Below are positions 17,602 through 49,804 of a stretch of DNA of 64,000 nucleotides, piece after piece. The stretch comes from Rhodococcus sp. W8901 (lineage in GTDB: Bacteria > Actinomycetota > Actinomycetes > Mycobacteriales > Mycobacteriaceae): assembly GCF_013348805.1 (NCBI RefSeq), contig NZ_CP054690.1, positions 3,162,001 through 3,226,000 on the forward strand, given 5' to 3'. Every line of letters starts with the position of its first letter. The first letter of the stretch is position 1. The position numbers were made by a program, and so were the translations under genes. The notes under the pieces are model-generated. The model was given only the letters and a program-made list of their open reading frames with translations, was not told the DNA's origin and ran no database searches.

Positions 17602-17673
17602 GAGCAAAGCCTAGTCAATGCGAGGAACGAACTCTATTCGGCAGGAGAACGCCCCGTGACGTCCAGATGAGCG

Positions 17674-36572: not shown

Positions 36573-36598
36573 ATACCCGGACGGACGCGCGCCCAACC
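36573..36598 (-). promoter_or_regulatory. SigF-type promoter for the DUF6098-like gene
   Basis: On the minus strand GGTT, 16 bases, GGGTAT, the full actinobacterial SigF/SigB pattern. Predicted start about 65 bases before the GTG. Confidence 0.7.
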
Positions 36599-36819
36599 AT
36601 CTATCCCGTCGGTCTCCCGGACCCGGCAGTCCCGCACGGCGCCCTGTCGGCGACTCGCGCACGTTTCACTTCCGAGCGCCTCGGGAATGCACCGTCAATT
36701 GCATTCGCTCGGCGATGCACCGAGCATCTCGCCTCGTGGGCGATGACACGACGCACACGGTGGGCGTCGCGGCACCCGAGCCGGCCGAGCAGCTCAGGCT
36801 TCCATTCACTAAGGCGTAC

Positions 36820-36962
36820 TCGGTCGCCCACCTGGCGTGGGGCTTCCAGCCGACGCATCGGCGTCGAGCAGTCCACGTGTCCTCGACTTGGCCGAGGGGA
36901 TGGTCGACCGCGCCGGCACCGGCAGCGCCGTTCTCGCGGACCGGTCGGTATTCGAGCGTTGA
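36820..36962 (+). pseudogene. Relic of a second epimerase gene
   Basis: Two short pieces: SVAHLAWGFQPTHR (from 36820), like VIHLAWLFQPTHR of the epimerase at 34678, and in another frame VLDLAEGMVDRAGTGS followed by AVLADRSVFER and a stop at 36962, which resembles an epimerase C-terminus. Most of the middle is deleted. The rest of 36500-37012 holds no gene I can support. Confidence 0.55.
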
Positions 36963-37012
36963 CGTCAGCGCTCAGGCGGGTCCCCGTCGGGCTCAGGAAG
37001 CCGACCTGATGG

Positions 37013-37489
37013 TCAGTCCACGCGCCTCGACGCCGGTTCCGCGTTCCGGGTCTCCAACGGTGGGAGAAACCCGCCGATGAGGATCATCACCACAGCGAGG
37101 CCCAGGTGGAGCCAGTTGTCGGCGTCGTTGACCGGAAGGAAATTGGCGGCGTCGTCTCGGTTGATCGAAACGCCGTAAATCCACACAGCGAAGTAGACGA
37201 CTCCGCCGCCGATCAGATAGACCCGGGCGAGCCCGATGCTGCGTGCCATCAGGATTCCGGCCACACCGAAAGCGAGATGTACGACGTTGTGCAGTACCGA
37301 TACCTCGAAGATTCCTAGCAGTTTCGCATCCGAGTGATGACCCGCCCACGTCATCGTGTCGTAGTCGGTCGTGATTCCGGGAATGAAGCCCAGGATTCCG
37401 ACGACGAGGAACACGACGCCGAACACCAGAGCCACCACCTCCGTCGCCGAGCGCTTCCGAGCAGATGTCCGCCGAGGATCGCTGGGCAT
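37013..37489 (-). CDS. DUF4383 membrane protein
   Basis: 158 residues with four predicted transmembrane helices. Typical DUF4383 segments: VVALVFGVVFLVVGILGFIPGITT, GIFEVSVLHNVVHLAFGVAGILMARS, YLIGGGVVYFAVWIYG and NWLHLGLAVVMILIGGFLPP. The function of the family is unknown; members are frequent in actinobacterial stress regulons. The ATG at 37489 is preferred over an upstream GTG because GGAAGG precedes it. A perfect SigF-type promoter lies 38-63 bases upstream. Confidence 0.85.
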   Translation of the reverse strand: MPSDPRRTSARKRSATEVVALVFGVVFLVVGILGFIPGITTDYDTMTWAGHHSDAKLLGIFEVSVLHNVVHLAFGVAGILMARSIGLARVYLIGGGVVYFAVWIYGVSINRDDAANFLPVNDADNWLHLGLAVVMILIGGFLPPLETRNAEPASRRVD

Positions 37490-37526
37490 GTCCCACACCT
37501 TCCGTTTCGAGTCGGTCACTTGCCGA

Positions 37527-37552
37527 ATACCCGCGATCGCCGAAGGTCAACC
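37527..37552 (-). promoter_or_regulatory. SigF-type promoter for the DUF4383 gene
   Basis: On the minus strand GGTT, 16 bases, GGGTAT, matching the consensus exactly. It is back-to-back with the plus-strand promoter at 37576-37601. Confidence 0.75.
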
Positions 37553-37575
37553 GCGGCCACGCCCGAGACATCCGT

Positions 37576-37601
37576 GTGTCGCGAGTCCGGCGAATGGGTA
37601 C
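37576..37601 (+). promoter_or_regulatory. SigF-type promoter for the hydrophilic-protein gene
   Basis: GTGT, 16 bases, GGGTAC; one mismatch in each box from the SigF pattern. It is 48 bases before the ATG at 37649. Confidence 0.55.
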
Positions 37602-37648
37602 TCGACATGCACGAGGAACTCCGCCGCCCGACGGATATCGAGGAGGCA

Positions 37649-38076
37649 GTCATGACGCAGCGACCGGGCGAACATCTGGGCGAGGAACCACAGTCCGAAC
37701 GAGGAGCCCCGGGTTCACGCGACACCGGAGCCGACGACCCCAGCGCAGGCAAGCATCGACGCGAGGGCGCCTTCGAGGACGAATCCACGATCTCGTCGGG
37801 TGAACCGGGCTGGCAGGCGTCCCCGGATGCCGGGGGGCACGGATCGTCTTCCGACGAGGCCGCCGTGCCCCGTACGACGATCGCCAGAGGGAGGCGAAGT
37901 CCGCCGAGCACATGCGTGCACGCGCCGGAGATCCCGACGGCAGCGGTGAGGCACAGCGAAGCGGCGTGGAACACGAACAGCCGTCCACGTCCGACGAAGG
38001 GGTGGGACCGGCGCATCAGGCGGGTACCCGACGTGGAGAGGATCACCCGCCAGAAACAACTCACCCTGAGAAGTAG
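37649..38076 (+). pseudogene. Hydrophilic stress-type protein with a frameshift
   Basis: Starts MTQRPGEHLGEEPQSERGAP after a good GAGGAGG and runs as a Gly/Glu/Asp/Ser-rich, disordered-looking protein to about 37867. At a CCCC run (37868-37871) the sensible reading moves to the next frame: PYDDRQREAKSAEHMRARAGDP, then THQ-like AHQAGTRRGEDHPPETTHPEK and a TAG at 38076. One indel restores about 142 residues. It may be a true pseudogene or a homopolymer sequencing error. It resembles hydrophilin-like proteins of Rhodococcus; function unknown. Confidence 0.65.
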
Positions 38077-38119
38077 CCCTCCGGAGCGAAGGCACGACGA
38101 CTCGTGAGCGACTCGGCCA

Positions 38120-38413
38120 TTACCATCGTCCGATTCCCCGGTAGGAGAATCCGCACGCAGCCATTGCGGCGGCGTCGAGAGTTTCGCGCGTCGATGAGGC
38201 GGCCATCACGGCGGTCACCTCCGGCACGTCGGCGCCCATCGCGGTGCACAGGTCGGCGAGTTCGTTCGTGCGGGACGCCTTCACCGCCATGAAACCGTTG
38301 CACGCGTACTTCGACAGTTCGGCGCTCGCCCAGTCGGTACGGAAGACGGGAACGGAAACCGAGCTGTACAGGGATAGGCAGAGAACCACGACGTCACCAT
38401 CGGCAAGGACGTC
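38120..38413 (-). pseudogene. Remnant of UDP-glucose 6-dehydrogenase
   Basis: The piece SAELSKYACNGFMAVKASRT, followed by NELADLCTAMGADVPEVTAVM, matches the central helical region of UDP-glucose/GDP-mannose dehydrogenases (there AELxKYAxNAFLAxKxSFxNE...). It is followed by a shortened CGFSYRG in place of the glycine-rich catalytic-Cys loop (typically GFGGSCFPKD). The NAD-binding N-terminal domain and the C-terminal domain are missing. Nothing else is supported in 38077-38534. Confidence 0.55.
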
Positions 38414-38534
38414 GAGTCCGGTGTCGAATTGAGCTGTCCCGTAACGTAATCCCGTACTGCGAAACGCCGTCAACACCGACCTTGCGGATTCCCTGCCGCA
38501 TGCATGAGATCGCCGAACAGGGGTATTCGTGGTC

Positions 38535-39144
38535 ATGACAGAACCGACCGCACTCGCCCTCGTCTGTACGCTCAAACCCTCCCCCGGACCGTCGAGCAGC
38601 GATCTGATCGCCCGTCAGGTCCTGGGGGAACTCGAGAAGAACGGCATCTCGGGCCGAACGATCCGGGTCGTGGACCACCACGTCGCTCCCGGGGTCGAGA
38701 AGGACAGTGGGAGGGGGCGACGAGTGGCCGGCCCTGCGGCGCGCGGTCCTCGAATCCGACATCGTGCTGATCTCGACGCCCACGTGGCTGGGGCAGATGT
38801 CGAGCGTCGCGAAGCGGGTTCTCGAGCGCCTCGACGCCGAACTCTCGGAAACGGACGACGACGGACGTCCCGTCCTGTTCGACAAGGTCGCAACCGCTGC
38901 CGTCGTCGGGAATGAGGACGGCGCGCACGCCATCGTCGCTAGCCTGTTCCCGGCACTGAACGACATCGGCTTCTCCGTGCCCGCCCAGGGGTGCACGTAC
39001 TGGAACGGTGAGGCGATGACTCCCGGGGACTACAACGATCTGGACGAGGTGCCCGACGCAGTGGCCTCGACGAACTCGACTCTGGCCGCCAACGCGGCAC
39101 ACCTCGCGCGAGCGCTGCGGGAGAAACGGTATCCGGCGACGTGA
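38535..39144 (+). pseudogene. Flavodoxin-like/NADPH-dependent FMN reductase, frameshifted
   Basis: Frame one (ATG 38535) gives TALALVCTLKPSPGPSSSDLIARQVLGELEKNGISGRTIRVVDHHVAPGV, with an FMN phosphate loop. Frame two, from a G-rich run near 38705-38716, continues GDEWPALRRAVLESDIVLISTPTWLGQMSSVAKRVLERL to CTYWNGEAMTPGDYND and a stop at 39144. Joined, they make one flavoprotein of about 200 residues. A single extra base in the G run explains the break, so a sequencing error is possible. Confidence 0.75.
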
Positions 39145-39281
39145 GCGAGTCGGTCGAACTGCCCCGCAGCAGCGCCGACGAGCCGGGCACCTGCAGGCGT
39201 GCGGCAAGGCGCGGCGCCGCCAGGAGTGACCGCCCGGGCTGGTGCCGGTCGCTCGGTCGATAGGGCGGGGCCGACCCTGGG

Positions 39282-39510
39282 AGGATCGCTTCCTCGCGGA
39301 CCGGGACACAGACAGATGGCACGACCTGCGAGCGAACGACGTCGGCGAGCGCTTCCACGAATCTCGGCGACCAGTTCACCCCCCAAAAAAGAAGACCTGC
39401 GCACGTCACGCCGAGGCACAGGCCATGCGGGCGGTCGCGACCGAACTCGGCAATACTCCGGCGGTGGCCCGCGCGTCGTACGTCGACCCGTGGAGCTACT
39501 CGGTTCGTGC
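39282..39510 (+). pseudogene. Remnant of type IB DNA topoisomerase
   Basis: Segments DRWHDLRANDVGERFHE, then (other frame) GDQFTP, then AEAQAMRAVATELGNTPAVA and RASYVDP correspond in order to the C-terminal catalytic part of bacterial topoisomerase IB (relatives: RRWHDxRxDDVNxxLKE, AKDFRTWHAT, LGNTPAVxRxSYIDP, whose Tyr is the nucleophile). Two or more frameshifts and loss of the N-terminal half make it non-functional. It occupies the otherwise empty 39145-39577 gap. Confidence 0.65.
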
Positions 39511-39577
39511 GAGGAACAGGCTGCATCCTGACGCGCTCGTACTCTTCCGACCCCGGGTCACGCCGCGTCGTCACGCG

Positions 39578-39838
39578 TCACCAGACGCCGGTGGCCATCA
39601 GGATCAGTGCGATCGCCACCGCAACGAAGACCACCACGATGAGAGCGACCACGATGATCGTGGCCGTGCCGGTCACCGGGAATCCGTGGCGCGTGTCGGG
39701 TTCGTGCTCCCACACCCCCGAGGTTCCGCCCGACGCGGGCGGCGTCGACCCAGCGGGCACACCTCCTCCGCCCGACTCCAGGTCCGGTGTGTTGCGGGGG
39801 TCGGGGTCGGGTCCGTCGGCTGCACGTGGATCGGTCAT
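39578..39838 (-). CDS. Small DUF6480-like membrane protein
   Basis: 86 residues: a Pro/Gly/Asp-rich N-terminal half (DPRAADGPDPDPRNTPDLES) and one C-terminal transmembrane helix (GFPVTGTATIIVVALIVVVFVAVAIALILMA). It matches a small uncharacterised actinobacterial family I recall as DUF6480. The ATG at 39838 has GGAGG five bases before. It diverges from the gas-vesicle operon; a GGGTAC box is present upstream but its -35 match is poor. Confidence 0.75.
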   Translation of the reverse strand: MTDPRAADGPDPDPRNTPDLESGGGGVPAGSTPPASGGTSGVWEHEPDTRHGFPVTGTATIIVVALIVVVFVAVAIALILMATGVW

Positions 39839-39930
39839 CTCGCCCTCCTGGTCGCTTCTCATGCGAGTACCCGCTGGGGCCGCAAGTCATTCGCCGCGAC
39901 CCGGTACAGGTACGCGATTTCGCGATCCGT

Positions 39931-39956
39931 GTTTGCGCGGGTGCCGAAGCGGCTAT
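39931..39956 (+). promoter_or_regulatory. SigF-type promoter of the gas-vesicle operon
   Basis: GTTT, 16 bases, GGCTAT, one mismatch from the SigF pattern GTTT-N16-GGGTAT. It lies 74 bases before the first gvp start, with no other gene between. Confidence 0.6.
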
Positions 39957-40030
39957 CCGATCACGTGGAGCGTGTCGATCCGGGCCGGTGGGGTCCGGGC
40001 ATGTCCCTCCCCTGTACGAAGGAACCGGTC

Positions 40031-40759
40031 ATGAAAGGTGGCATGCGAGTCGCCCTCGGTGTCGCGGTCGGCTATTTCCTCGGCCGAACCCGCAAGATGA
40101 AGGTCGCGCTGATGCTCGCCGGCGCGGGAGCGACGGGGCGTCTGCCCAGTAATTCTCGCGAATTGGTTCGCGAGGGAATCAAACGGCTCGGCGACTCGGC
40201 GGAGGTCGGGAAACTCACCGAGAGCGTCCGCGGCGAACTCACGGATGCGGCGAAACGCGCGGCGGTTGCCGCCGCGAGCAACCGGATCGAGGCCCTCACC
40301 AATCGCATCGAGGGCGTCGAATCAGGCGTGGGCGAGGGCGTCGGCAAGGTGGGCGGGGACGTCCGCGACACCGTCGGCAAGGTCGGCGAGGGACTCCTCG
40401 GCGGCGAGGAAGCGCGCGGCGACGAGGAAGAGGAGCACGGAGAGCCGGACGAGAAGGACGAGAAGGACGAGAAGGACACCGAAGCATCCCAATCCGCGGC
40501 GTCGAAGTCCCGGTCCGAGCGACCGCCCGCCCCTCGGCAGCGCAGGAAGCGCACAGAGCCCGAGGACGACACGGGCAGCGACGACCAGGGCGAGGGGCGG
40601 GAGGACGCAGAGTCTCGTCGCCGATCCGCCGCCTCACGGACCTCGCCTTCGCGGCGCAGCACGCCGCGCACGCGTAAGGACTCCGAGCCCAAGTCGCGTA
40701 CACGTGCACGGTCCACGACGTCCGCCGACGACGCACCCGTGCGACGTACCGGGAGGTGA
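40031..40759 (+). CDS. gvpY: Gas vesicle-associated GvpY-like protein
   Basis: 242 residues. A short hydrophobic N-terminus (MRVALGVAVGYFLGRTRKMKVALMLAGAGATGR) is followed by an amphipathic helical region (ELVREGIKRLGDSAEVGKLTESVRGELTDAAKRAAVAAAS) and a long highly charged tail with DEKDEKDEKD and many Arg/Ser. It corresponds in place and layout to gvpY of Streptomyces gas-vesicle clusters. Its role is not known; a vesicle-surface or scaffold role is inference. First gene of the operon; AAGGAA precedes the ATG, and the stop overlaps a GTG nine bases before the next ATG. Confidence 0.75.
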   Translation: MKGGMRVALGVAVGYFLGRTRKMKVALMLAGAGATGRLPSNSRELVREGIKRLGDSAEVGKLTESVRGELTDAAKRAAVAAASNRIEALTNRIEGVESGVGEGVGKVGGDVRDTVGKVGEGLLGGEEARGDEEEEHGEPDEKDEKDEKDTEASQSAASKSRSERPPAPRQRRKRTEPEDDTGSDDQGEGREDAESRRRSAASRTSPSRRSTPRTRKDSEPKSRTRARSTTSADDAPVRRTGR

Positions 40760-40764
40760 GAGCT

Positions 40765-41727
40765 ATGACTGCAACCAAAGAGGGGACTGACGAGCAGGGG
40801 CCCGCGGTCGGCGCGGAGCAACTCAAGTCGTCCCTGCAGCATCTCGTCGGCGCCGTCGCCCAGAAGGGGGTCAAGTCGCTGACCGATACCGTCTCTTCGA
40901 CGGTGGGGAACCTCGACCAGTTCAGCGAGAGCGGTGGCAGTGGAGGTCTCGCGTCCGCCGTGACGGGGCTCGCCCAGGGAGAATCCCCCGCAAAAGTGGC
41001 GCTCAAGGCGGGCATGTCGTCCGTGACGGGGAAGATCAAGGATAAGGGACGCGACCTCAAGGAAGCCCTCACGGGAGGCGGCAAAGGAAAAGGCAAGGGC
41101 AAGAAGGACAAGATCACCAACATCGTCGAACAGATCGACATCGGAGCACCCGTCGACCTGGTGTACGACCAGTGGACGCAGTTCGCCGACTTCCCCCGGT
41201 TCATGAAGAAGCTCGAACAGGTGGAACAGATCTCCGACGAGAAGCTGAGATGGAAGGCTCAGGTCTTCTGGTCCCACCGGTCGTGGGAGTCCACCATCCT
41301 CGAACAGGTCCAGGACGAACGAATCGTCTGGCGCTCGAAAGGCGACAAGGGGTACCTGGACGGCGCGGTCACCTTCCACGAACTCACCCCCGACCTCACC
41401 AGGGTGCTGGTCGTGATCGAGTACCACCCGCAAGGCTTCTTCGAGAAGACCGGAAACATCTGGCGCGCCCAGGGACGCCGAATCCGATTGGAACTCAAAC
41501 ACTTCCGACGCCAGGTCATGATACAGACACTCCTTCATCCGGAGGAGATCGAGGGCTGGCACGGGGAGATCCACGACGGCGAGGTGGTACCGGAAGAGGA
41601 CCTCGAGGAGGGCCCCGAAGACGACGTAGAGGAACCCGACGAGAGCGAGGACGAGGAGCCGGACGACGGCGAGGACGAGGAGCCGGACGACGGCGAGGAA
41701 GCGGAATCCGGGTCCCGGGAGGAGTGA
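40765..41727 (+). CDS. gvpZ: SRPBCC-domain gas vesicle protein GvpZ
   Basis: 320 residues. An N-terminal helical part rich in Gly and Lys is followed by a START/SRPBCC (polyketide-cyclase-like) domain at about 110-245 ([36 protein letters not shown]...[19 protein letters not shown]). The tail is acidic and contains two exact copies of a 24-base unit (41650-41697; protein DEEPDDGE repeated). SRPBCC domains bind hydrophobic ligands, so a lipid or chaperone role at the vesicle wall is possible. GGGAGG lies eight bases before the ATG. Confidence 0.82.
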
Positions 41728-41734
41728 TCGGAAG

Positions 41735-42133
41735 ATGACCATGGTTCAAGGAGGCGGTGGCGCGGGCGGCCCGAGTTCCCAGAGCCTCGCGGACGTCGTG
41801 GACACGATCCTCGACAAGGGCCTCGTAATCGACGCCTACGTTCGACTATCCCTCGTGGGCATCGAACTCGTCACCATCGATGCACGCGTCGTGGTCGCCA
41901 GTGTCGACACGTACCTACGGTTCGCGGAGGCAGTCAATCGTCTGGAGATCTCGGAGACCCAGCCGAAGGGCCTGCCAGACATGGTGCAGGACATGACCAC
42001 GGGCGTGGCGGAAGGGAAGACGAAGGGTGCCATCGAGGCGGCCGGCGAGAAGGTACTCGACTTTCTCGGCGGTTCCCAGGACGAGCGCGAGCAGCAGCAT
42101 CGCGGACACTCCGGCGGAGGCAAGGAGCGATGA
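41735..42133 (+). CDS. gvpA: Gas vesicle structural protein GvpA
   Basis: 132 residues, PF00741 type. The rib-forming core is [59 protein letters not shown] (about 14-72): helix, two beta strands, helix. It has a longer C-terminal tail than cyanobacterial GvpA, ending in a Gly/His-rich segment. It is the best candidate for the main wall protein, because the other two PF00741 proteins in the operon resemble GvpJ and GvpS. GGGAGGAG precedes the ATG. Confidence 0.9.
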
Positions 42134-42912
42134 ACGAAGAACAATCCGCGCCGGAAGAACGGCGCCCGGTGGTGTACGTGTACGGCTTGGTGCCCGCGGA
42201 CGTGGAAGTGAAAGAGGACGCCACCGGCATCGGCTCGCCACCCCGGCCACTGAAGATCGTGACGCACGACGACGTCGCCGCACTGGTCAGCGAGATCGAT
42301 CCGAATTCACCGTTGGGCAGCTCCGACGATCTTCGAGCCCACGCGGCTGTACTCGACGCCACGGTCACGGCGGCACCGGTGCTGCCGTTGCGCTTCGGTG
42401 CGGTGCTCACCGATACCGATGCAGTGGTTTCCGAGCTTCTCGAACAGTATCGAGACGAGTTCCACGACGCGCTCGAGCAACTCGAGGGAATGGTTCAGTT
42501 CGTCGTCAAGGGCAGGTACGTCGAGGACGCGATCCTGCGGGAGATCTTGTCGGATGACCCCGAGGCCGGACGCCTGCGCGAGGCCATACGCGACCAGACG
42601 GAGGACGTGACCCGCGACGAGCGCCTCGCGCTCGGTGAGCTGATCAGCCGGGCGCTCACCGGCAAACGTGAGCAGGACACCCAACGCATCGTCGAGGCGG
42701 TCGAACCGGTCGCCGCGGCCGTGTCGGCGCGCGAGCCGACCGACGACGAGGAGGCCGGTTCCGTAGCCGTGCTGATCCCCGCGGACCGGACGGACGAGTT
42801 GGAAGAAGCGGTGGCTCCGCTGATCGACGAATGGCAGGGAAGGATCGACGTTACGGTGACCGGTCCGTTGGCCGCATACGACTTCGTGAAGACACGGGCA
42901 CCGGGAACCTGA
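42130..42912 (+). CDS. gvpF: Gas vesicle protein GvpF
   Basis: 260 residues of the GvpL/GvpF family. [13 protein letters not shown] starts the N-terminal domain. [40 protein letters not shown] is the family signature, and the C-terminal ferredoxin-like part ([33 protein letters not shown]) is present. GvpF binds GvpA and prevents its premature aggregation during assembly. It overlaps gvpA by ATGA; GGAGGCAAGGAG lies ahead. Confidence 0.92.
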
Positions 42913-42913
42913 C

Positions 42914-43174
42914 ATGGGCCTCTTCTCAGCCATCTTCGGGCTCCCACTGGCCCCGGTCCGGGGCGTGGTGTGGATCGGGGAAGTCGTACGCCGTCAGGTC
43001 GAGGAGGAGACGACGAGCCCCGCCGCGATGCGCCGCGACCTCGAGGTGATCGAGGAGGGCCGGCGTTCGGGGCAGATGTCGGAGGACGAAGCCGCCCGTG
43101 CCGAGGACGAGATCCTTCACCGGGTCACGCGCCCCAGGGACGTCGACGCCCGTGGCGGGGGGAGTGAACGATGA
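42914..43174 (+). CDS. gvpG: Gas vesicle protein GvpG
   Basis: 86 residues. MGLFSAIFGLPLAPVRGVVWIGEVVRRQVEEE is the typical GvpG N-terminus, followed by a helical AAMRRDLEVIEEGRRSGQMSEDEAARAEDEIL. GvpG is an accessory assembly protein working with GvpF/L. It starts one base after the gvpF stop and overlaps gvpO by ATGA. Confidence 0.92.
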   Translation: MGLFSAIFGLPLAPVRGVVWIGEVVRRQVEEETTSPAAMRRDLEVIEEGRRSGQMSEDEAARAEDEILHRVTRPRDVDARGGGSER

Positions 43175-43470
43175 CCGGGCCGCGAGATCCGGACGACCAC
43201 ACCGACTTGACCGCACCGGAGGCGGCCGCCGAGGCCGCTCGGCAGATCGCCGCACTCACCGGTCGGACCCCGATCGGAGCGGTGTCCGTCGCGCCGAGCG
43301 ACGAAGGGTGGTCCGTCGAGGTGGAGGTCGTCGAGGATCGCCGTATCCCGTCGTCCTCCGACGTCCTGGCCATCTACGTCGTCGTCCTCGACATGGACGG
43401 AATGCTGCTGTCCTACCGGAGGAGCCGGCAGTACACGCGCGGTCGCTCCGAGAAGGGTGCTCAACAGTGA
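43171..43470 (+). CDS. gvpO: Gas vesicle protein GvpO
   Basis: 99 residues. AARQIAALTGRTPIGAVSVAPSDEGWSVEVEVVEDRRIPSSSDVLAIYVVVLDMDGMLLSYRRSRQYTRG is the complete GvpO fold. In Streptomyces clusters gvpO precedes gvpA; here it is between gvpG and gvpJ. It is required for vesicle formation in haloarchaea. GTGA overlap with the next gene. Confidence 0.92.
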   Translation: MTGPRDPDDHTDLTAPEAAAEAARQIAALTGRTPIGAVSVAPSDEGWSVEVEVVEDRRIPSSSDVLAIYVVVLDMDGMLLSYRRSRQYTRGRSEKGAQQ

Positions 43471-43883
43471 CGAGGTCGAGCGGCGGATCGAACTACCCGC
43501 AGCAGTACAGCCAGGGTCTCGGCGGCGCGGGCCACGAGCCGGCCAACCTCGGCGACATCCTCGAACGGGTCCTGGACAAGGGCATCGTGATCGCCGGCGA
43601 TATTCGGGTCAATCTCCTCGACATCGAACTGCTGACCATCAAGCTGCGCCTGGTGATCGCGTCGCTCGAAACTGCGCGCGAGGTCGGAATCGACTGGTGG
43701 GAACACGATCCGTGGCTGTCGGGAGGCAATCGCGACCTGGAACTCGAGAACGAGCGTCTGCGCTCGCGCATCGCGGCTCTCGAGTCCGGCGAGGGGCGGA
43801 TCGCGGATGTGACGACCGGCCCGCAACAGGCGGTGGAACCGGCCGAATCCCCCGCCGAGGAGGAGCACGACGATGACCCCTGA
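43467..43883 (+). CDS. gvpJ: Gas vesicle protein GvpJ
   Basis: 138 residues, PF00741 core NLGDILERVLDKGIVIAGDIRVNLLDIELLTIKLRLVIASLETAREVGIDWWEHDPWL, then a coiled-coil (DLELENERLRSRIAALES) and an acidic tail. The IDWW segment and coiled coil mark it as the minor wall protein GvpJ rather than GvpA; it probably acts at vesicle tips. It begins with GTG overlapping the gvpO stop; its 3' end overlaps gvpL by 11 bases. Confidence 0.88.
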   Translation: MTRSSGGSNYPQQYSQGLGGAGHEPANLGDILERVLDKGIVIAGDIRVNLLDIELLTIKLRLVIASLETAREVGIDWWEHDPWLSGGNRDLELENERLRSRIAALESGEGRIADVTTGPQQAVEPAESPAEEEHDDDP

Positions 43884-44652
43884 CGACGGCGTGTGGGTAT
43901 ACGCGGTGACCACGGAGGGGCCGTTTCCCGGCGGAATCTCCGGCATCCGCGGCGTGGCCGGCGAGGAACTGCGCACGGTCACCGAGTCGGGCTTCGCGGC
44001 TGTCGTCGGCACAGTGCGACTCGACACGTTCGGCGAGGAGGCGCTGCGCCGCAATCTGGAAGACCTCGACTGGCTTGCCGAGACGGCACGTCGTCACGAT
44101 GCGGTCGTCGCCGCGATCTGCGCCGGTGGCGCCACCGTGCCGCTGCGCCTGGCGACGGTGTACTTCGACGACGACCGGGTGCGAACGATGTTGCGCGACA
44201 ACGCCCAGCAGCTCGGTGAGGCATTGGAGCAGATCACCGATCGCTCCGAATGGGGCGTGCGGTCCTATCTCGATCGCGCCCGCACCGAACCGCGGGACGC
44301 ACGTGAGAAGACCGGCAGACCTTCCGGGACGGCGTATCTGATGCAGCGGCGCGCGCAGGCGGCCGCCCGGGAGGAAGCCGAATCCGCCGCCGGCCGGCGC
44401 GCGGACGAGATCTTCGCCGAGCTGTCGCGGTGGGCGGTGGCCGGCGCCCGACAGCCACCCTCTCCCCCGGATCTGTCCTCGCGCCGCTCCCAGGAAATCC
44501 TCAATGCATCGTTCCTGGTCGACAACGAGCACCACCGCGAGTTCGTCACTGCCGTCGAGCAACTCGACACTCGGTTCGACGACGTGGAACTGGTGCTCAC
44601 CGGTCCCTGGCCGCCGTACTCCTTCACCTCCGTGGAGGCGAGCGCCCGATGA
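43873..44652 (+). CDS. gvpL: Gas vesicle protein GvpL
   Basis: 259 residues, second GvpL/GvpF-family protein. VWVYAVTTEGPF, DAVVAAICAGGATVPLRLATVYFDDDRVRTMLRDNAQQLGEALEQI and the C-terminal ILNASFLVDNEHHREFVTAVEQLDTRFDDVELVLTGPWPPYSF are characteristic. GvpL is thought to recruit other accessory Gvp proteins. It overlaps both neighbours. Confidence 0.92.
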   Translation: MTPDDGVWVYAVTTEGPFPGGISGIRGVAGEELRTVTESGFAAVVGTVRLDTFGEEALRRNLEDLDWLAETARRHDAVVAAICAGGATVPLRLATVYFDDDRVRTMLRDNAQQLGEALEQITDRSEWGVRSYLDRARTEPRDAREKTGRPSGTAYLMQRRAQAAAREEAESAAGRRADEIFAELSRWAVAGARQPPSPPDLSSRRSQEILNASFLVDNEHHREFVTAVEQLDTRFDDVELVLTGPWPPYSFTSVEASAR

Positions 44653-44846
44653 GCACCGCCCCGGACCGTCGGATAGCGCTGGTCGATCTCCTGGACCGCG
44701 TCCTCGGCGGAGGCGTCGTGGTCGCGGGCGAGATCACCCTCTCGATCGCCGACGTCGACATGGTGCACATCTCGCTCCGCACGCTCGTGTCGTCGGTCAG
44801 TGCGCTGACGCCGCCGCCCGCCGGGACGCCGGAGAGCCGACGGTGA
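44649..44846 (+). CDS. gvpS: Gas vesicle protein GvpS (short GvpA-like)
   Basis: 65 residues: DRRIALVDLLDRVLGGGVVVAGEITLSIADVDMVHISLRTLVSSVSAL is a bare PF00741 core without tail. The position between gvpL and gvpK is that of gvpS in Streptomyces. Probably a minor wall protein. ATGA overlap with gvpL and GTGA overlap with gvpK. Confidence 0.88.
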   Translation: MSTAPDRRIALVDLLDRVLGGGVVVAGEITLSIADVDMVHISLRTLVSSVSALTPPPAGTPESRR

Positions 44847-45184
44847 ACGCATCGCCCGATGGTCCGGATTCGAGCGAGGCCGCCACGTCGCGTCCTCGCC
44901 AGCCGTCGATCCGCCAGCGGATCGACGCCGACCCCGAGTCGGTCGAGCGCGGGCTCGTCGCTCTGGTCCTCACGCTCGTCGAACTGCTGCGGCAACTCAT
45001 GGAACGGCAGGCGCTGCGCCGGGTGGACGCCGGCGATCTCTCCGACGACCAGATCGAACGCATCGGCACCACTCTGATGATGCTCGAGGAGAAGATGGAG
45101 GAGCTGCGTGAGCATTTCGGCCTCGAACCGGAGGATCTCAACATCGATCTGGGCCCTCTTGGTCCGCTACTGGCAGACGACTGA
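44843..45184 (+). CDS. gvpK: Gas vesicle protein GvpK
   Basis: 113 residues: RIDADPESVERGLVALVLTLVELLRQLMERQALRRVDAGDLSDDQIERIGTTLMMLEEKMEELREHFGLEPEDLNIDLGPLGPLL is a full GvpK. It is needed for vesicle formation in other organisms. Starts with GTG overlapping the gvpS stop. It is the last gene of the operon; no clear terminator hairpin follows. Confidence 0.93.
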   Translation: MNASPDGPDSSEAATSRPRQPSIRQRIDADPESVERGLVALVLTLVELLRQLMERQALRRVDAGDLSDDQIERIGTTLMMLEEKMEELREHFGLEPEDLNIDLGPLGPLLADD

Positions 45185-45220
45185 TCTGCCGCAGAGTTTC
45201 CCGACGTCACCGTCCTGCGG

Positions 45221-45544
45221 TTGCCGCGGAAGTGGCGTTCTGCGACGGCGACACGGTGTGGCAGCCCGGGGCTCTCGCCATCCGCCGCGGACGTCCTCGA
45301 TCGGTACCCAGGACTGGACACGGTCACCGGCCGGCGCCTCGTGGAGCCGACACTCGCGGAGGACCCACTGACACCGGAACTGCGCAGTTCTCCTGTTGTC
45401 GGCCCCGAGTCGATGCCCGGCCCGCCGCTCCTGGGCATCATGCCGGGCCTGACGATGATGGCCGCCGTGCCATTCCTGGAGGTCGGTCGGTTGCTGGCGC
45501 GAGGACGTCACCCTCCACCACCGGCCCCTCGACGGCGCGGATAA
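45221..45544 (+). other. Possible degenerate coding stretch, unidentified
   Basis: An open frame with coding-like codon bias (DVLDRYPGLDTVTGRRLVEP, TLAEDPLTPELRSSPVVGPE, PLLGIMPGLTMMAAVPFLEVGRLLARG) but no good start, no ribosome binding site and no family I recognise. Together with 45585-45863 it fills the 700 bases between gvpK and the anti-sigma gene. It may be the tail of a decayed gene. Confidence 0.3.
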
Positions 45545-45584
45545 GTCCCGTGGGGTGGGAATCGGTGAGATGTCCCGCATTTGC

Positions 45585-45863
45585 CTATCCGTAGAGTTTG
45601 AGATCCCGGTCGAACGATGGAGGCCGTACGGTGGTCCGGCCGTCGTACTGGGTGATCAGCACGCGCCCTGCCGGGATTCGCGCGCGCGTCGGTGCGGCCT
45701 CGCCGCGCATCCGTGTCTGGACACGGTCGAGCCGCATGACGTGTGCAGTGCCGTGGATTCCCTGTGTGACTCCTCCCTGGATTTCTTCCAGTGCCCCGGA
45801 GTTTGGAATCGACGCACCGCGGGAATCCTCCGATCGAAGCCGCCTACCGGATCCACCTGTCAC
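45585..45863 (-). CDS. Hypothetical protein, low support
   Basis: Up to 92 residues; the second half (RMRGEAAPTRARIPAGRVLI, TQYDGRTTVRPPSFDRDLKLYG) looks protein-like, the first half less so. No domain, membrane segment or clear ribosome binding site is seen, and it overlaps the plus-strand promoter at 45801. It could be a truncated gene. Confidence 0.3.
   Translation of the reverse strand: MTGGSGRRLRSEDSRGASIPNSGALEEIQGGVTQGIHGTAHVMRLDRVQTRMRGEAAPTRARIPAGRVLITQYDGRTTVRPPSFDRDLKLYG
45801..45826 (+). promoter_or_regulatory. SigF-type promoter of the rsbW-sigF operon
   Basis: GTTT, 16 bases, GGGAAT, one mismatch from consensus, 61 bases before the anti-sigma start. It implies autoregulation, as known for usfX-sigF in mycobacteria. 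Confidence 0.7.
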
Positions 45864-45886
45864 GCCCAGTTTCGAAGCGAGGCGTC

Positions 45887-46327
45887 ATGAGCGAAGCGTG
45901 TCTCTCCACGAGACGAAGCGAGGACTCCGCGCCTGTCATCGAGTTACGCACCGCGGCCGACGCCTACCAACTGGCCGCGATTCGGCGCGTATCCACGTCG
46001 TTGGCAGCGCAATGCGACATGACACTCGACCAACTCGCCGATCTGCGGCTTGCTGTCGACGAGGCCTGCAGCATCCTGCTGCGAATCGCACTTCCCGACA
46101 GCGTCATCGTCTGCACGTTTCGCGTGAGTGCCGATTCGTTCGACTTCGCCGGTTGCGTCCCCACCACCGGCGCTGAACTGGAAGGGCAGTACGAGCAGAC
46201 GTTCGGTTGGCATGTCCTTCGTACGCTCACCAACGAACTGGCTCTCGATCGGCATCCCGGCACTGGAGACGGCCGGTCCCCCACCATCACCATCTCGTTC
46301 GCGATGCGGTGCGGGGAGAGCGTGTGA
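45887..46327 (+). CDS. RsbW/UsfX-like anti-sigma factor
   Basis: 146 residues with a GHKL-type ATPase fold. AADAYQLAAIRRVSTSLAAQCDMTLDQLADLRLAVDEACSILL contains the first helix and N-box region (Glu present, the usual Mg-binding Asn replaced, as is common in actinobacterial SigF antagonists); FGWHVLRTLTNEL and TITISFAM follow. It should hold SigF inactive until an anti-anti-sigma factor binds. GTGA overlap with sigF and a SigF promoter upstream support the pairing. GAGG lies before the ATG. Confidence 0.88.
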   Translation: MSEACLSTRRSEDSAPVIELRTAADAYQLAAIRRVSTSLAAQCDMTLDQLADLRLAVDEACSILLRIALPDSVIVCTFRVSADSFDFAGCVPTTGAELEGQYEQTFGWHVLRTLTNELALDRHPGTGDGRSPTITISFAMRCGESV

Positions 46328-47103
46328 CACCCCGAACAACCGATCGGCCGGACGAGTACGACGACGTGAAGCCGATGTTCATGTTGTTGGAATCGCTGGG
46401 CGAATCGGACCCAGCACGCGCAGAACTGCGGCAGAGGATCATTACGCGCTGCCTTCCGCTTGCCGAGCACATCGCCCGGCGTTTCGACCGACGGGGTGAG
46501 CCCCTCGAGGACCTGGTGCAGGTCGCCAGCATCGGCCTCGTCAACGCCGTGGACCGCTACGACGTCACTCGTGGCTCGGACTTCCTCGCCTTTGCAGTGC
46601 CCACGATCATGGGGGAGGTCCGACGTCACTTCCGTGACACCGGCTGGGCCGTGCGGGTGCCCCGGCGACTGAAGGAGCTTCATCTCGACCTGATCAAGGT
46701 GTCGTCGAGTCTGTCCCAGCGGCTAGGGCGCTCGCCGACGACCCGCGAGATGGCCGAAGAACTCGGGATCGGGATCGACGATGTCGCTCAGGGCCTGCAG
46801 GCCGCCAACGGTTATCAAGCCCTTTCTGTCGACGGGACCGCTGGTGGCAGTCTCAAATCAGGATCGACGCTGGCTGATCTGTTGGGCGACACCGATTCGT
46901 ACCTCGCCGCGGTCGAGGATCACGAAACGCTGCGGGTCATCCTCGAAGGGTTACCGGACCGGGAACGCACGGTGCTGTTGCTCCGGTTCTTCGGCGATCA
47001 GACGCAGTCGCAGATCGCGGCCCGCGTGGGTGTCTCCCAGATGCACGTCTCCAGGATCCTCTCCGATACGCTGGCCAGACTACGTGCACAGGTGGAGCTA
47101 TAG
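46324..47103 (+). CDS. sigF: RNA polymerase sigma factor SigF/SigB type
   Basis: 259 residues, group 3 sigma factor. Region 2 is at about 35-115 (LPLAEHIARRFDRRGEPLEDLVQVASIGLVNAVDRYDVTRGSDFLAFAVPTIMGEVRRHFRD). Region 3 is near 120-175 (RVPRRLKELHLDLIKVSSSLSQRLGRSPTTREMAEELGI). Region 4 has the HTH near 235 (TQSQIAARVGVSQMHVSRILSDTLARL). Controls general-stress and stationary-phase genes in relatives. Starts with GTG overlapping the anti-sigma stop. Seven SigF-like promoters occur within 13 kb around it. Confidence 0.94.
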   Translation: MTPRTTDRPDEYDDVKPMFMLLESLGESDPARAELRQRIITRCLPLAEHIARRFDRRGEPLEDLVQVASIGLVNAVDRYDVTRGSDFLAFAVPTIMGEVRRHFRDTGWAVRVPRRLKELHLDLIKVSSSLSQRLGRSPTTREMAEELGIGIDDVAQGLQAANGYQALSVDGTAGGSLKSGSTLADLLGDTDSYLAAVEDHETLRVILEGLPDRERTVLLLRFFGDQTQSQIAARVGVSQMHVSRILSDTLARLRAQVEL

Positions 47104-47133
47104 TGCCGTCAGTCAGATAGTGCCGTCAGTCAG
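47101..47133. repeat. Tandem 17-base duplication at the sigF stop
   Basis: TAGTGCCGTCAGTCAGA at 47101-47117 is repeated at 47118-47133 (16 of 17 bases). The first copy contains the sigF stop codon and the second overlaps the stop of the convergent gene at 47130. Confidence 0.85.
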
Positions 47134-47366
47134 CCACCGGACAGTCTGCTGGCCAGCAACTCCTTGCTCTGCTCGGCACCTTTCCTGCTCTCACTCTGGG
47201 CGCGGCGGAAGAACTCCGCCAGTTCTCCGTCACCGTCGCGTTCGGCATCGGCGATGTAGTTCTCGAGCCGGAGGGCGTTGTTCATGCAGGTCTCGGCGAA
47301 CCAGATCAGATCGTAGGTCTTGTCGACGGTCCCGGTGACGCCTCCGGTCTCCGATGAATGCGACAT
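47130..47366 (-). CDS. Small helical hypothetical protein
   Basis: 78 residues, soluble and strongly helical: TGTVDKTYDLIWFAETCMNNALRLENYIADAERDGDGELAEFFRRAQSESRKGAEQSKELLASRL. It resembles short conserved proteins of Rhodococcus and Gordonia stress regions; the two-helix, acidic pattern is ferritin-like but no metal ligands can be assigned. GAGGAG lies eight bases before the ATG and a SigF-type promoter lies 39 bases upstream. Function unknown. Confidence 0.75.
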   Translation of the reverse strand: MSHSSETGGVTGTVDKTYDLIWFAETCMNNALRLENYIADAERDGDGELAEFFRRAQSESRKGAEQSKELLASRLSGG

Positions 47367-47404
47367 CTGCTCGTCTCCTCGTTCGATGTTCCTCATGGCA
47401 CGGC

Positions 47405-47430
47405 GTACCCACTTCACGACGCCGGAAACC
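47405..47430 (-). promoter_or_regulatory. SigF-type promoter for the 78-residue gene
   Basis: On the minus strand GGTT, 16 bases, GGGTAC; one mismatch from consensus. The nearest downstream gene is the ATG at 47366. Confidence 0.65.
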
Positions 47431-47622
47431 TGATGCCGGCAGTCCCGACGCGATGCGCCAGGCTGTACACGAGGACGAGTCGGTGTTAGAAACAAGAGAG
47501 GTTGAACACCCAGCCTGTCCAGCAACGGTGACGGACATTTCTGGCCGTCATGGAACGGACGTCTCGACCGAGTTCCACACGAGGCGCCATCCAACACGTT
47601 TGCACCGGATGGAGGCAACGAC

Positions 47623-48078
47623 GTGTCTGATCTTCCAACTTCGGCAATGGTCATCCTTCGCGCATCGGCAAGGAGATACGAGACCGCTTCGGATAGCGTC
47701 ACGGCATCGGATCCGACGGCCCTGCTGGTCGAACTCTTGGTCGACTTGGACCTCAGCACGGTAGACCGCTTCCGGCGGTCGTTCAAATCTTTGCTTCACG
47801 AAGCGTCAGGAGCCAGACCGGCGATCGGCGATCTGATCGTGCTCGACCTCTCCCGGGTCGACTTCATCGGAGTCGACGGCGCTTCGGCTCTGGTCGACGC
47901 GAAGGAGTTGGCCGCCGGATACGGTCTCGAGCTCGCGCTCGTCACTGCGACGCGGGGCGTCGAGCATGCTCTCGCTGCAACCGGGGTGAGCCAGATCTTC
48001 ACGTGTCACGGGACTGTCGCGTCGGCCCTGGCGTTCGGGTCGAGCCATCTCGGCGCGCTGACCGACTTGGCGTACTGA
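47623..48078 (+). CDS. STAS-domain protein (anti-anti-sigma-like)
   Basis: 151 residues with one STAS domain at about 35-135 (LLVELLVDLDLSTVDRFRRSFKSLLHE, DLIVLDLSRVDFIGVDGASALVDAKELAAGYGLELALVTATRGVEHALAATGV). In SpoIIAA/RsbV the residue before the conserved Gly is the phosphorylated Ser; here it is Asp85, so the usual phospho-switch is absent or mimicked. It likely binds the anti-sigma factor next door, but could serve another sigma system. GTG start with GGAGG seven bases before. Confidence 0.85.
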   Translation: MSDLPTSAMVILRASARRYETASDSVTASDPTALLVELLVDLDLSTVDRFRRSFKSLLHEASGARPAIGDLIVLDLSRVDFIGVDGASALVDAKELAAGYGLELALVTATRGVEHALAATGVSQIFTCHGTVASALAFGSSHLGALTDLAY

Positions 48079-48649
48079 TCGCGCGGGTGGATGGAGACAT
48101 CCAGATGCAAGACGACACCGTTCGCCCCACTGCGTGAGCGTTTCGCGGACATCCCGGATCGTGCCCAGAGCAGCGGACACCGCCTGCCGGTATGACGCTG
48201 ATGGCACTGGCGCTTTCCGGCCGGACCCACCAAGAGGCGAGCGTCGAACTCAAAGTCGTTAGTCGGCAGCTTCTGGACAAGACCGTGCCCGTCAGGGTGG
48301 TTGAGTGCGACGGCCACAAGTACAACCAATACTGTTACACGACAAGCACTTCCAGATACCCCGGCAGAAGCGGTGGTACGACGGGAACACTCCGGGACCA
48401 CCCGAGAAGCCGCGGAGTGACTGGGGCTCGTCGTCGAGTCGTGCACCTGCGCCCGACCGGGGACGCCGTCGGTGGCGCAGACCAGGGAGATCAGCGCGGA
48501 CGACGGGACCTTCCGTATTGGCTGCTTGTTAGCCCGCCAAGGAGGCTCCGTCGAATCTCGAGAGTCGGCGTCGGCGTCGGCGAGAACATCATGGGACCTT
48601 GTTCGCAGGGACGCCCACTACCGTCCCAGCAAGGAGGTATAACCGAGCA
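48079..48649. other. 571-base stretch without a supported gene
   Basis: Open frames exist on both strands but none has a good start, ribosome binding site or recognisable protein. Base composition is locally lower in GC (around 48240-48360) than the neighbours, which suggests older decayed or transferred DNA. Confidence 0.4.
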
Positions 48650-49129
48650 ATGGCGATCCCTCATAACGACGGCGGCGCGCTGGCAGATGAAGTCTCCGAC
48701 CTCGCACAGAAGGCCGGGCGAACGGTCGGCACTGGCGAATCTCTGACCGGGGGACACATTTCGTGCCTCCTCGCCGCCGCTCCAAGCTCGTCCGCCTGGT
48801 TCCGCGGCACCATCGTCGCCTACTCGAGTGCCGTCAAGCACGATCTGCTCGAGGTGCCGACTGGACCGGTCGTCTCGGAACGCGCGGCACGCAGCATGGC
48901 GGTGGCTACCGCAAAGCTCCTGAACGCCGACACCGTGGTCGCGGTGACGGGCGCCGCCGGCCCCGACGGGCAGGACGGCCAGGAACCCGGGACTGTGTGG
49001 TTCGGGCTCTTCGACCGCGGATCCGTCAGCGCACTGCAGAAATCCTTCACGGGCAATCCGACCGACGTCGTCGAGTTGACCGCTCACCACGCACTCGAAT
49101 TGCTCGTGAACTGCCTTCGTGCCGGATGA
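48650..49129 (+). CDS. CinA C-terminal domain protein (PncC-type NMN amidase)
   Basis: 159 residues, single CinA_C domain: VGTGESLTGGHISCLLAAAPSSSAWFRGTIVAYSSAVKHDLLEV, then VVSERAARSMAVATAKLLNADTVVAVTGAAGPDGQDGQEPGTVWFGL. Family members deamidate nicotinamide mononucleotide in pyridine-nucleotide recycling. The N-terminal molybdopterin-like domain of full CinA is absent. AAGGAGG lies about 12 bases before the ATG. It stands in the stress island rather than near recA, so it is probably an accessory copy. Confidence 0.9.
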   Translation: MAIPHNDGGALADEVSDLAQKAGRTVGTGESLTGGHISCLLAAAPSSSAWFRGTIVAYSSAVKHDLLEVPTGPVVSERAARSMAVATAKLLNADTVVAVTGAAGPDGQDGQEPGTVWFGLFDRGSVSALQKSFTGNPTDVVELTAHHALELLVNCLRAG

Positions 49130-49306
49130 GGATTATTGGAGCGCCCGCCTCCATCAGTGCCGACCCCCGCGGGTCGCCGTCGGTGAGGAGCGGGAGGATG
49201 TCCTCGCCCCAGCGATTCACGCTGGATTGACCCATCCTGAACTGGATCGGCTCGACACTGTGCCGCCACGTCGCGCCTGCTGCACCAGCTTCGCACCCGG
49301 TGCCCC

Positions 49307-49546
49307 GTGGGCCTCCAGGTCGCGCTGGGCCTCACCCTGGTCGCTGCCGGCTACGGCTTCGCAGGCTGGGCATGGATCGCCGGAATCATTTGTGGTGGCG
49401 CTCTGCTGGTGGGGACGGCACTCGTGCTCGCTGAGCATCGACGCGTCAAGCGACTGGACAACGCCTCACTCACCAATCAAGGGCCACTGATCGATGTTTG
49501 CCCGCGGACCCGACCGGGTAAATGCTGGGCGAATCGTATCCGTTGA
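49307..49546 (+). CDS. Possible small two-helix membrane protein
   Basis: 79 residues from a GTG. Two hydrophobic helices (QVALGLTLVAAGYGFAGWAWIAGIICGGALLVGTALVLAEHRRVKRLD) look real, but the N-terminus has no ribosome binding site and the C-terminal part (TNQGPLIDVCPRTRPGKCWANRIR) runs through the csbD promoter. It may be a truncated gene. On the minus strand at 49131-49230 another fragment (NRWGEDILPLLTDGDPRGSA) looks protein-like; I cannot name it. Confidence 0.4.
   Translation: MGLQVALGLTLVAAGYGFAGWAWIAGIICGGALLVGTALVLAEHRRVKRLDNASLTNQGPLIDVCPRTRPGKCWANRIR
49496..49521 (+). promoter_or_regulatory. SigF-type promoter for csbD
   Basis: GTTT, 16 bases, GGGTAA, a near-perfect SigF pattern 38 bases before the csbD ATG. 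csbD is a classical general-stress gene in Bacillus. Confidence 0.75.
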
Positions 49547-49558
49547 AAGGAGATCGTC

Positions 49559-49804
49559 ATGTCGGACAAGGAAAAGTCGGGTCCTGCAGAGGCAGTCAAA
49601 GGCACTGTCGAGGGCGTGAAAGGCAAGGCCAAGGAAGCCGCCGGCGCCGTGACGGGTCAGGACGACCTTGTGCGGGAAGGAAAAGCGCAGCAGGACAAGG
49701 CCGCCGCCCAACGGGAAGCGGCCGAAAAGGAAGCTGAGGCGGAGAAGGCGCGCGGAAAGGCTGCGGCTCAGGAGGCACACCAGCGCACCGAACAGGATAA
49801 GTAG
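49559..49804 (+). CDS. CsbD-family stress protein
   Basis: 81 residues, hydrophilic: SGPAEAVKGTVEGVKGKAKEAAGAVTGQDDLVREGKAQQDKAAAQREAAEKEAEAEKARGKAAAQEAHQRTEQDK. The KGxxEGxKGKxKEAxGxxTG repeat is the CsbD signature. Such proteins are among the most strongly induced general-stress proteins, with unknown biochemical role. AAAGGAG precedes the ATG. Confidence 0.92.
   Translation: MSDKEKSGPAEAVKGTVEGVKGKAKEAAGAVTGQDDLVREGKAQQDKAAAQREAAEKEAEAEKARGKAAAQEAHQRTEQDK

Follow-up and report, generated by a model that had tools for sequence, protein, structure and literature searches.

A probable local SigF regulon with variable cargo at a fixed hisF-trpE address in a Prescottella/Rhodococcus-type actinomycete

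The DNA analysed here (the window) comprises 64,000 nucleotides, bases 3162001-3226000 of the 5.71-Mb single-contig genome of Rhodococcus sp. W8901, and about 13.1 kb of it surrounds the sigma factor gene sigF (the island). In the island, rsbW and sigF lie together with a gas vesicle (gvp) operon, csbD, a gene for a stand-alone STAS protein, genes for DUF6098, DUF4383 and DUF6480 proteins, for a hydrophilic protein and for a 78-residue protein, and nine promoter-like sites (Table 1). An earlier note on this DNA had proposed a local SigF regulon round the rsbW-sigF operon, and our analysis supports that proposal, since the sites stand above the genome background and are conserved in sister species. 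We consider it quite probable that the island is such a regulon at a fixed address between hisF and trpE, with sigF as the anchor and with a cargo that has been gained and lost. Genomes are denoted G (14 of the genus, G000-G013, with G000 as the source genome, and G018 from another genus of the family), and loci of relatives are denoted L.

The seven 26-mers on which the earlier note was based are present letter for letter at their positions and on their strands, and, once the starts had been checked in frame, their -10 boxes proved to lie 37-74 bases from the start codons, in agreement with the 36-75 bases claimed. We added two sites, at 36663-36688 on the plus strand and at 39867-39892 on the minus strand, ahead of DUF6480. 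The sites have the form of SigF/SigB-class promoters (a GTTT/GGTT-like -35 box, 15-17 bases and a GGGTA-like -10 box), the DUF6480 site only at its -10. The seven do share a pattern, but "near-identical" is too strong a description of them, as their -35 boxes are GGTT (three), GTTT (three) and GTGT (one), and their -10 boxes include GGGTAT, GGGTAC, GGCTAT, GGGAAT and GGGTAA. Similarly, the spacer of exactly 16 bases is upheld if GGTT and GTTT are both permitted, because its constancy results from counting them as one box; if GTT is taken as the anchor, the GGTT sites come out shorter by one base. As a strict rule it was ruled out, because the site at 47405-47430 can also be read as GTTT-N15 and N15 spacers occur in the orthologous promoters of rsbW (L067) and csbD (L065). 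For mycobacteria, the SigF consensus has been given as GGWWT-N16-17-GGGTAY (PMC7693655), and the table for Mycobacterium smegmatis in PMC4694148 contains spacers from N14 to N19, of which N15 and N16 are the commonest by eye. According to Table 1 of that paper, GTTT-N16-GGGAA, GTGT-N16-GGGTA, GGTT-N16-GGGTA and GTTT-N16-GGCTA adjoin genes that were reduced in the M. smegmatis sigF deletion; this match of variants is a weak kind of support, because those sites were assigned by eye and post hoc (PMC4694148).

Scoring of the island used the mycobacterial-type consensus GTTT-N15/16-GGGTA[TC] with at least 9 of 10 positions, rather than a matrix made from these sites. At this threshold, the 13.1-kb island had 8 distinct sites, as opposed to 3 in the 50.9 kb that make up the rest of the window, and dinucleotide shuffles of the island (n = 60) gave a mean of 0.63 and a maximum of 3. 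Among 400 random 200-mers of the window, which served as the score background, 346 scored 6-7 and 51 scored at least 8; the starts within the gvp operon (two genes tried) and those of sigF itself, of the STAS gene (47623) and of cinA (48650) reached just 6-8, and thus neither the STAS gene nor cinA, both within the range covered by the earlier note, had a site above background. Genome-wide, GKTT-N16-GGGTAY had 25 matches versus 5 for the reversed pattern, and GTTT-N16-GGGTAT with at most one mismatch had 62 versus 18. Five identical matches in both scans lie in what we take to be antisense 16S rRNA; an insertion element had been considered as the source of this fivefold repeat and was given up in favour of the rRNA. 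Removal of these five copies left 57 matches in the one-mismatch set, six of which are in the island, namely five of the seven original sites and the site at 36663, the other two of the seven having two mismatches. When the matches were placed at random 20,000 times, six sites fell within 13 kb 0 times and within 20 kb 2 times. The 45 non-rRNA matches outside the island and a second cluster described below reached at most 3 per 20 kb. The genome scan and its enrichment test therefore place the site density of the island far above the genome background; the seven sites are genuine and exceed chance by a wide margin.

Enrichment was also found in the relatives. Ten genus genomes carry this sigF, defined by at least 75% identity (G000, G001, G002, G003, G005, G006, G007, G010, G011 and G013), and the sigF neighbourhoods of nine relatives contained 65 sites with a score of at least 9 versus 8 on the reversed sequence, with G007 the richest (14) and G006 the poorest (2). 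The hisF-trpE gaps of five relatives had 67 sites in 267.6 kb (12 reversed) versus 22 in 380 kb of control regions (8 reversed) picked at intervals along the same contigs, that is, 2.50 versus 0.58 per 10 kb, a 4.3-fold difference (two-sided binomial p = 9e-11). For the window itself, the 22-kb gap had 9 sites and the 42 kb outside it had 2. When the stricter genome-wide pattern was applied to G007, six matches fell in 17.7 kb starting at the rsbW-sigF promoter. No enrichment was seen round SigF in the four genus genomes that have only another SigF (6 sites in 160 kb versus 15 reversed). The SigF of G018 has an adjoining rsbW and an upstream site, but only 3 sites were found in 40 kb.

Five of the nine sites show evolutionary constraint on the two boxes. 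The mean column identity in the motif versus the other columns was 0.98 versus 0.60 for rsbW (10 sequences), 0.93 versus 0.71 for gvp (7 sequences), 0.90 versus 0.58 for csbD (8 sequences, one of them a paralogue from the second cluster), 0.97 versus 0.65 for DUF6480 (4 sequences) and 0.97 versus 0.68 for the hydrophilic protein gene (3 sequences). Since both boxes are preserved at these five promoters (90-98% versus 58-71%), they look like SigF-class promoters. Even the variants are retained: the rsbW promoter is GTTT-N16-GGGAAT/C in all ten genus sequences (N15 in one), the gvp -10 box is GGCTA or GGTTA in relatives, the hydrophilic protein gene keeps its GTGT (GTGT-16-GGGTAC in L060 and GTGT-16-GGGTAG in L064), and the DUF6480 site is GAAT or GCAT-16-GGGTAC in the window, L059, L061 and L064.

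Table 1. Genes and predicted SigF-class promoters in the island (window coordinates)
Feature	Position	Strand	Remarks
DUF6098 protein, 159 amino acids	36020..36499	-	Pfam PF19593, 1.9e-38
SigF-class promoter of DUF6098, GGTT-16-GGGTAT	36573..36598	-	-10 is 73 bases from start GTG 36499
Extra site GTTT-16-GGGAAT, back to back with DUF6098 promoter; no clear gene behind	36663..36688	+	
DUF4383 membrane protein, 158 amino acids	37013..37489	-	PF14325, 2.9e-49
SigF-class promoter of DUF4383, GGTT-16-GGGTAT	37527..37552	-	
SigF-class promoter of hydrophilic protein gene, GTGT-16-GGGTAC	37576..37601	+	
Hydrophilic protein gene	37652..38107	+	matched by relatives in two frames
DUF6480 membrane protein, divergent from gvp	39578..39838	-	PF20088, 1.1e-16
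SigF-class promoter of DUF6480, GAAT-16-GGGTAC, weak -35	39867..39892	-	28 bases before start
SigF-class promoter of gas vesicle operon, GTTT-16-GGCTAT	39931..39956	+	
Gas vesicle operon, ten genes including SRPBCC protein (40765; PF03364) and GvpA (41735)	40031..45184	+	
SigF-class promoter of rsbW-sigF, GTTT-16-GGGAAT, likely autoregulatory	45801..45826	+	
RsbW-type anti-sigma factor without N-box Asn	45887..46327	+	PF13581; PDB 8ih8, 9e-16
SigF, SigB/F/G-class sigma factor	46324..47103	+	TIGR02980
78-residue protein	47130..47366	-	no Pfam or NCBIfam match
SigF-class promoter of 78-residue gene, GGTT-16 or GTTT-15-GGGTAC	47405..47430	-	
Stand-alone STAS protein, candidate anti-sigma antagonist, without RsbV serine	47623..48078	+	PF01740; TIGR00377 below cut-off
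SigF-class promoter of csbD, GTTT-16-GGGTAA	49496..49521	+	
CsbD-like stress protein	49559..49804	+	PF05532 1.4e-07, 31.7 bits, below gathering score 40

A sigma factor of the matching class is encoded in the middle of the island, as had been claimed: SigF scored 290.1 bits with TIGR02980 (SigB/F/G class; cut-off 234.35) and 371.7 with NF005514 (SigF), just under the cut-off of 372. The arrangement is of the mycobacterial type, with the anti-sigma factor gene directly upstream, rsbW and sigF overlapping at 46324-46327, and a SigF-type promoter before rsbW. M. smegmatis (MSMEG_1766-1804) likewise has an rsbW-sigF operon with a SigF-type promoter upstream and the same main promoter variants (PMC4694148; PMC7693655). 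The best PDB matches of RsbW were anti-sigma-F factor RsbW structures, 8ih8 and 8jzt (2.3e-15), in which the position of the N-box asparagine (Asn) is likewise not Asn, whereas the serine-protein kinase RsbW 6m36, in which this Asn is kept, was a weaker match (3.7e-8). In all ten RsbW rows, the Asn of the kinase motif EACTNAVQHAY is replaced by Thr (Ile in the window). This resembles RsbW1 of M. smegmatis, which is described as clustering with kinase-less anti-sigma factors (PMC7693655). The STAS protein has Val or Ile at the position of the RsbV serine in all 10 alignment rows, and it was the only stand-alone STAS found in the genome, as five others above the Pfam cut-off are C-termini of sulfate permeases, one weaker match aside. 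HATPase_c_2 had 15 other matches in the genome, of which the seven that were read are in frames of 332-543 residues (the two of these that were scanned are histidine kinases) and eight are weaker. The SpoIIE-type PP2C phosphatase model (PF07228) gave 0 matches in G000 at E 0.001 and is present in 5 of 14 control genomes. Unlike the Bacillus-type phosphorylation-dependent partner switch (RsbW/RsbV/PP2C), this system thus combines an RsbW lacking the N-box Asn, a STAS protein lacking the acceptor serine and no detected SpoIIE-type phosphatase, and a switch that operates without phosphorylation would be the simplest reading of these absences. M. smegmatis also differs in having a kinase, RsbW2, and a phospho-regulated antagonist, RsfB (PMC7693655); no such pair was found here. 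Cysteines at residues 43, 61 and 76 are conserved among the RsbW orthologues (10 of 10 sequences), and a redox input to RsbW through them is conceivable from the alignment.

We infer the following scheme. At rest, RsbW would hold SigF, and stress would free SigF, which might then transcribe the operon that encodes it, rsbW-sigF, and seven or more units nearby (gvp, DUF6480, csbD, DUF4383, DUF6098 and the genes for the hydrophilic and the 78-residue proteins) through their GTTT/GGTT-N15-16-GGGTA-type promoters. The STAS protein encoded downstream of sigF is the best candidate for pulling RsbW off SigF, and its action would be set by protein level or a ligand instead of phosphorylation. Over evolutionary time, genes with such promoters would have been gained and lost round the anchored sigma factor.

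Several observations weigh against this scheme, which is built on DNA sequence. The -10 box of gvp is off consensus (GGCTA/GGTTA) and that of rsbW is GGGAA in 10 of 10 sequences, and therefore the strengths or the readers of these promoters may differ. The DUF6480 -35 box (GAAT) does not occur in the M. smegmatis list of PMC4694148, and the site is not present in L068 and L070. Among the relatives' loci examined, none has an orthologue of DUF4383 that would allow a footprint; for DUF6098 and the 78-residue gene, comparison was limited to paralogues in the second cluster, apart from one partial match for the latter. In G002, the genome-wide pattern had only two matches near sigF. With respect to the switch, a divergent antagonist, kinase or phosphatase could escape the models used, and the weak STAS match and the eight weak HATPase matches remain. 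Finally, a second SigF with a site cluster of its own could read the same promoters.

This paralogue, encoded at about 3003903-3004688, some 200 kb away, is 64% identical to the SigF of the island, with long identical stretches in the alignment, and lies in a cluster of six non-rRNA sites (contig C1, 2985654-3005009). The cluster also holds homologues of csbD (85%), of DUF6098 (two pieces, with 80% and 69%) and of the 78-residue gene (61%), the last of which carries a site too; the counterpart of the DUF6098 promoter is GGTT-16-GGGTCC (score 8). Because the genome has two related site clusters, cross-reading between the two SigFs may occur, and the promoters might be of the SigB/F class and yet be read mainly by the second SigF, or by both, so that the island would be one node of a two-sigma network. 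We consider this possible though rather unlikely, since the relatives show enrichment round a sigF of the window type and the four genomes whose sole SigF is the other one show none, and since no rsbW-like match was found beside the paralogue. The tree is in line with this division: the ten SigFs at hisF-trpE separate from the rest (support 1.0), while those of G004, G008, G009 and G012 group with the paralogue (support 0.96), to which they are 70-84% identical, compared with 58-63% to the SigF of the window. Between the two clusters, 107 bp of the divergent promoter region at DUF6098 share 79% identity. In the second cluster, the divergent promoter leads to a 100-residue reading frame that was found neither in the window nor in those loci of relatives that were searched. 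In the window, 36663-37010 has a conserved promoter-like site without a clear gene, perhaps an orphan promoter left after gene loss.

The reading of the island as a local regulon anchored by sigF gains further from the position of the gene, which is between hisF and trpE in 10 of the 10 genus genomes that have it. The gap between these two genes is about 4.5 kb in G006, 12 in G005, 14 in G002, 22 in the window, 23 in G003 and G010, 25 in G013, 40 in G001, 73 in G007 and 107 in G011. An orthologue of the SRPBCC gene of the gvp operon is present in 7 of the 14 genus genomes, that is, in 7 of the 10 with this sigF and in none of the 4 without it, and in all seven sigF is within about 10 kb of it. 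The constant address together with the variable gap indicates that sigF is the fixed point and that the site-bearing cargo varies. The earlier note had instead seen a self-contained stress island whose members move with their own sigma factor. Self-containment is contradicted by 51 further non-rRNA matches outside the island, of which six surround the second SigF. The island as a unit that transfers together with its sigma factor would account for the variable cargo, for a gap of up to 107 kb and for the restriction of the gvp gene to genomes with this sigF nearby, but this sigF has the same address in every genome that carries it, the only tRNA found in the window (at 2890) is 34 kb from the island, the gvp gene is absent from 3 of the 10 genomes, and one of these, G013, retains rsbW, sigF, STAS, csbD and the hydrophilic protein gene. 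The fixed address led us to reject mobility as a unit, and transfer with the sigma factor is very improbable. Chance matches in a G+C-rich region, to which the G-rich GGGTA and the 18 reversed-pattern matches lend some colour for single sites, can be dismissed almost with certainty in view of the shuffles, the reversed controls, the footprints and the genus-wide enrichment; the footprints refute chance for the rsbW, gvp, csbD, DUF6480 and hydrophilic protein sites, and 36663-36688 remains a candidate as a working promoter.

A bolder form of the regulon reading can be put forward only tentatively, as somewhat short of an even chance: the hisF-trpE gap may be a regulon hot spot anchored by sigF, where genes with SigF promoters, gvp among them, settle and are lost, and where a switch without kinase, phosphatase and acceptor serine is set by the level of its antagonist or by a ligand. 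If so, closeness to the sigma factor gene would be the selected or mechanistic cause of regulon membership. The anchored layout of the ten genomes, with gaps of about 4.5 to 107 kb, provides a natural series in which regulon growth, and the importance of lying near the regulator, can be studied. Were the switch free of phosphorylation, it would have to sense stress in some other manner.

Parts of this picture are already in print. SigF-dependent genes of M. smegmatis also crowd near sigF (27 of 121 rows in part 1 of Table 1 of PMC4694148, by our own count); the words "gas vesicle" do not occur in the main text of that paper. For Streptomyces coelicolor, the promoter of the gvp operon is described as under SigB regulation (PMC5733086), salt induction of gvp with a proposed osmotic role has been described (PMC3123327; PMC5839063), and gvp genes are reported as induced by acid shock (PMC2631018). 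Taken together, these reports indicate that SigB/F-class control of gvp is known. The newer elements are a sigma factor that stays anchored while its cargo changes, and a partner switch that apparently lacks kinase, phosphatase and acceptor serine. In the open-access literature searched, we found nothing joining gas vesicles with SigF in Rhodococcus or with Rhodococcus equi, and nothing joining gas vesicles, SigB, Streptomyces coelicolor and csbD.

The operon of the window was identified by GvpA (NF006872, 160.8 bits, cut-off 151); most of the other gene names were assigned by position and are presumptive. We surveyed 80 actinomycete gvp loci, some shortened by contig ends and none from Streptomyces, of which one was too short for the promoter count. 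GTTT-N15/16-GGNTA was found within 460 bases round the operon start in 22 of 79 loci, compared with 3 of 612 mostly coding windows lying downstream on the same strand, 0 reversed and 5 of 308 further upstream. Loci with a site came from Actinomadura, Streptosporangium, Rhodococcus and Nocardioides among others and from none of the 26 Nocardia loci, and universal SigF-class control of gvp was therefore rejected. Only three of the 80 loci (L082, L083 and L087) had a SigF homologue within 10 kb of gvp, and in L081 (P. equi) it was just beyond; in this linkage to a sigma factor gene the present operon differs from that of S. coelicolor. An operon beside a likely stress regulator makes it directly testable why soil actinomycetes carry gvp genes. 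In Nocardia aurea (L087, about 17181-18233), a SigF homologue (50%) and a DUF6480 homologue are neighbours at a distance of some 7 kb from the SRPBCC gene of gvp; this may be a version of the linkage that arose independently or has decayed. In the leader of the gvp operon (39957-40030), 3' of the -10 box, all 7 genus sequences have a conserved CGATCCGG, then CCG, and GGG and CGG a few bases on, possibly an operator or a leader RNA element.

The identity of csbD is supported by homologues in relatives (81-94% identical). The G+C fraction of the island is 0.660 versus 0.683 for the rest of the window, and a strong foreign signature was not seen. A flavodoxin-like gene at 38504-39144 seems to be split over two frames; this and the two-frame hydrophilic protein gene reflect either real decay or sequencing errors.

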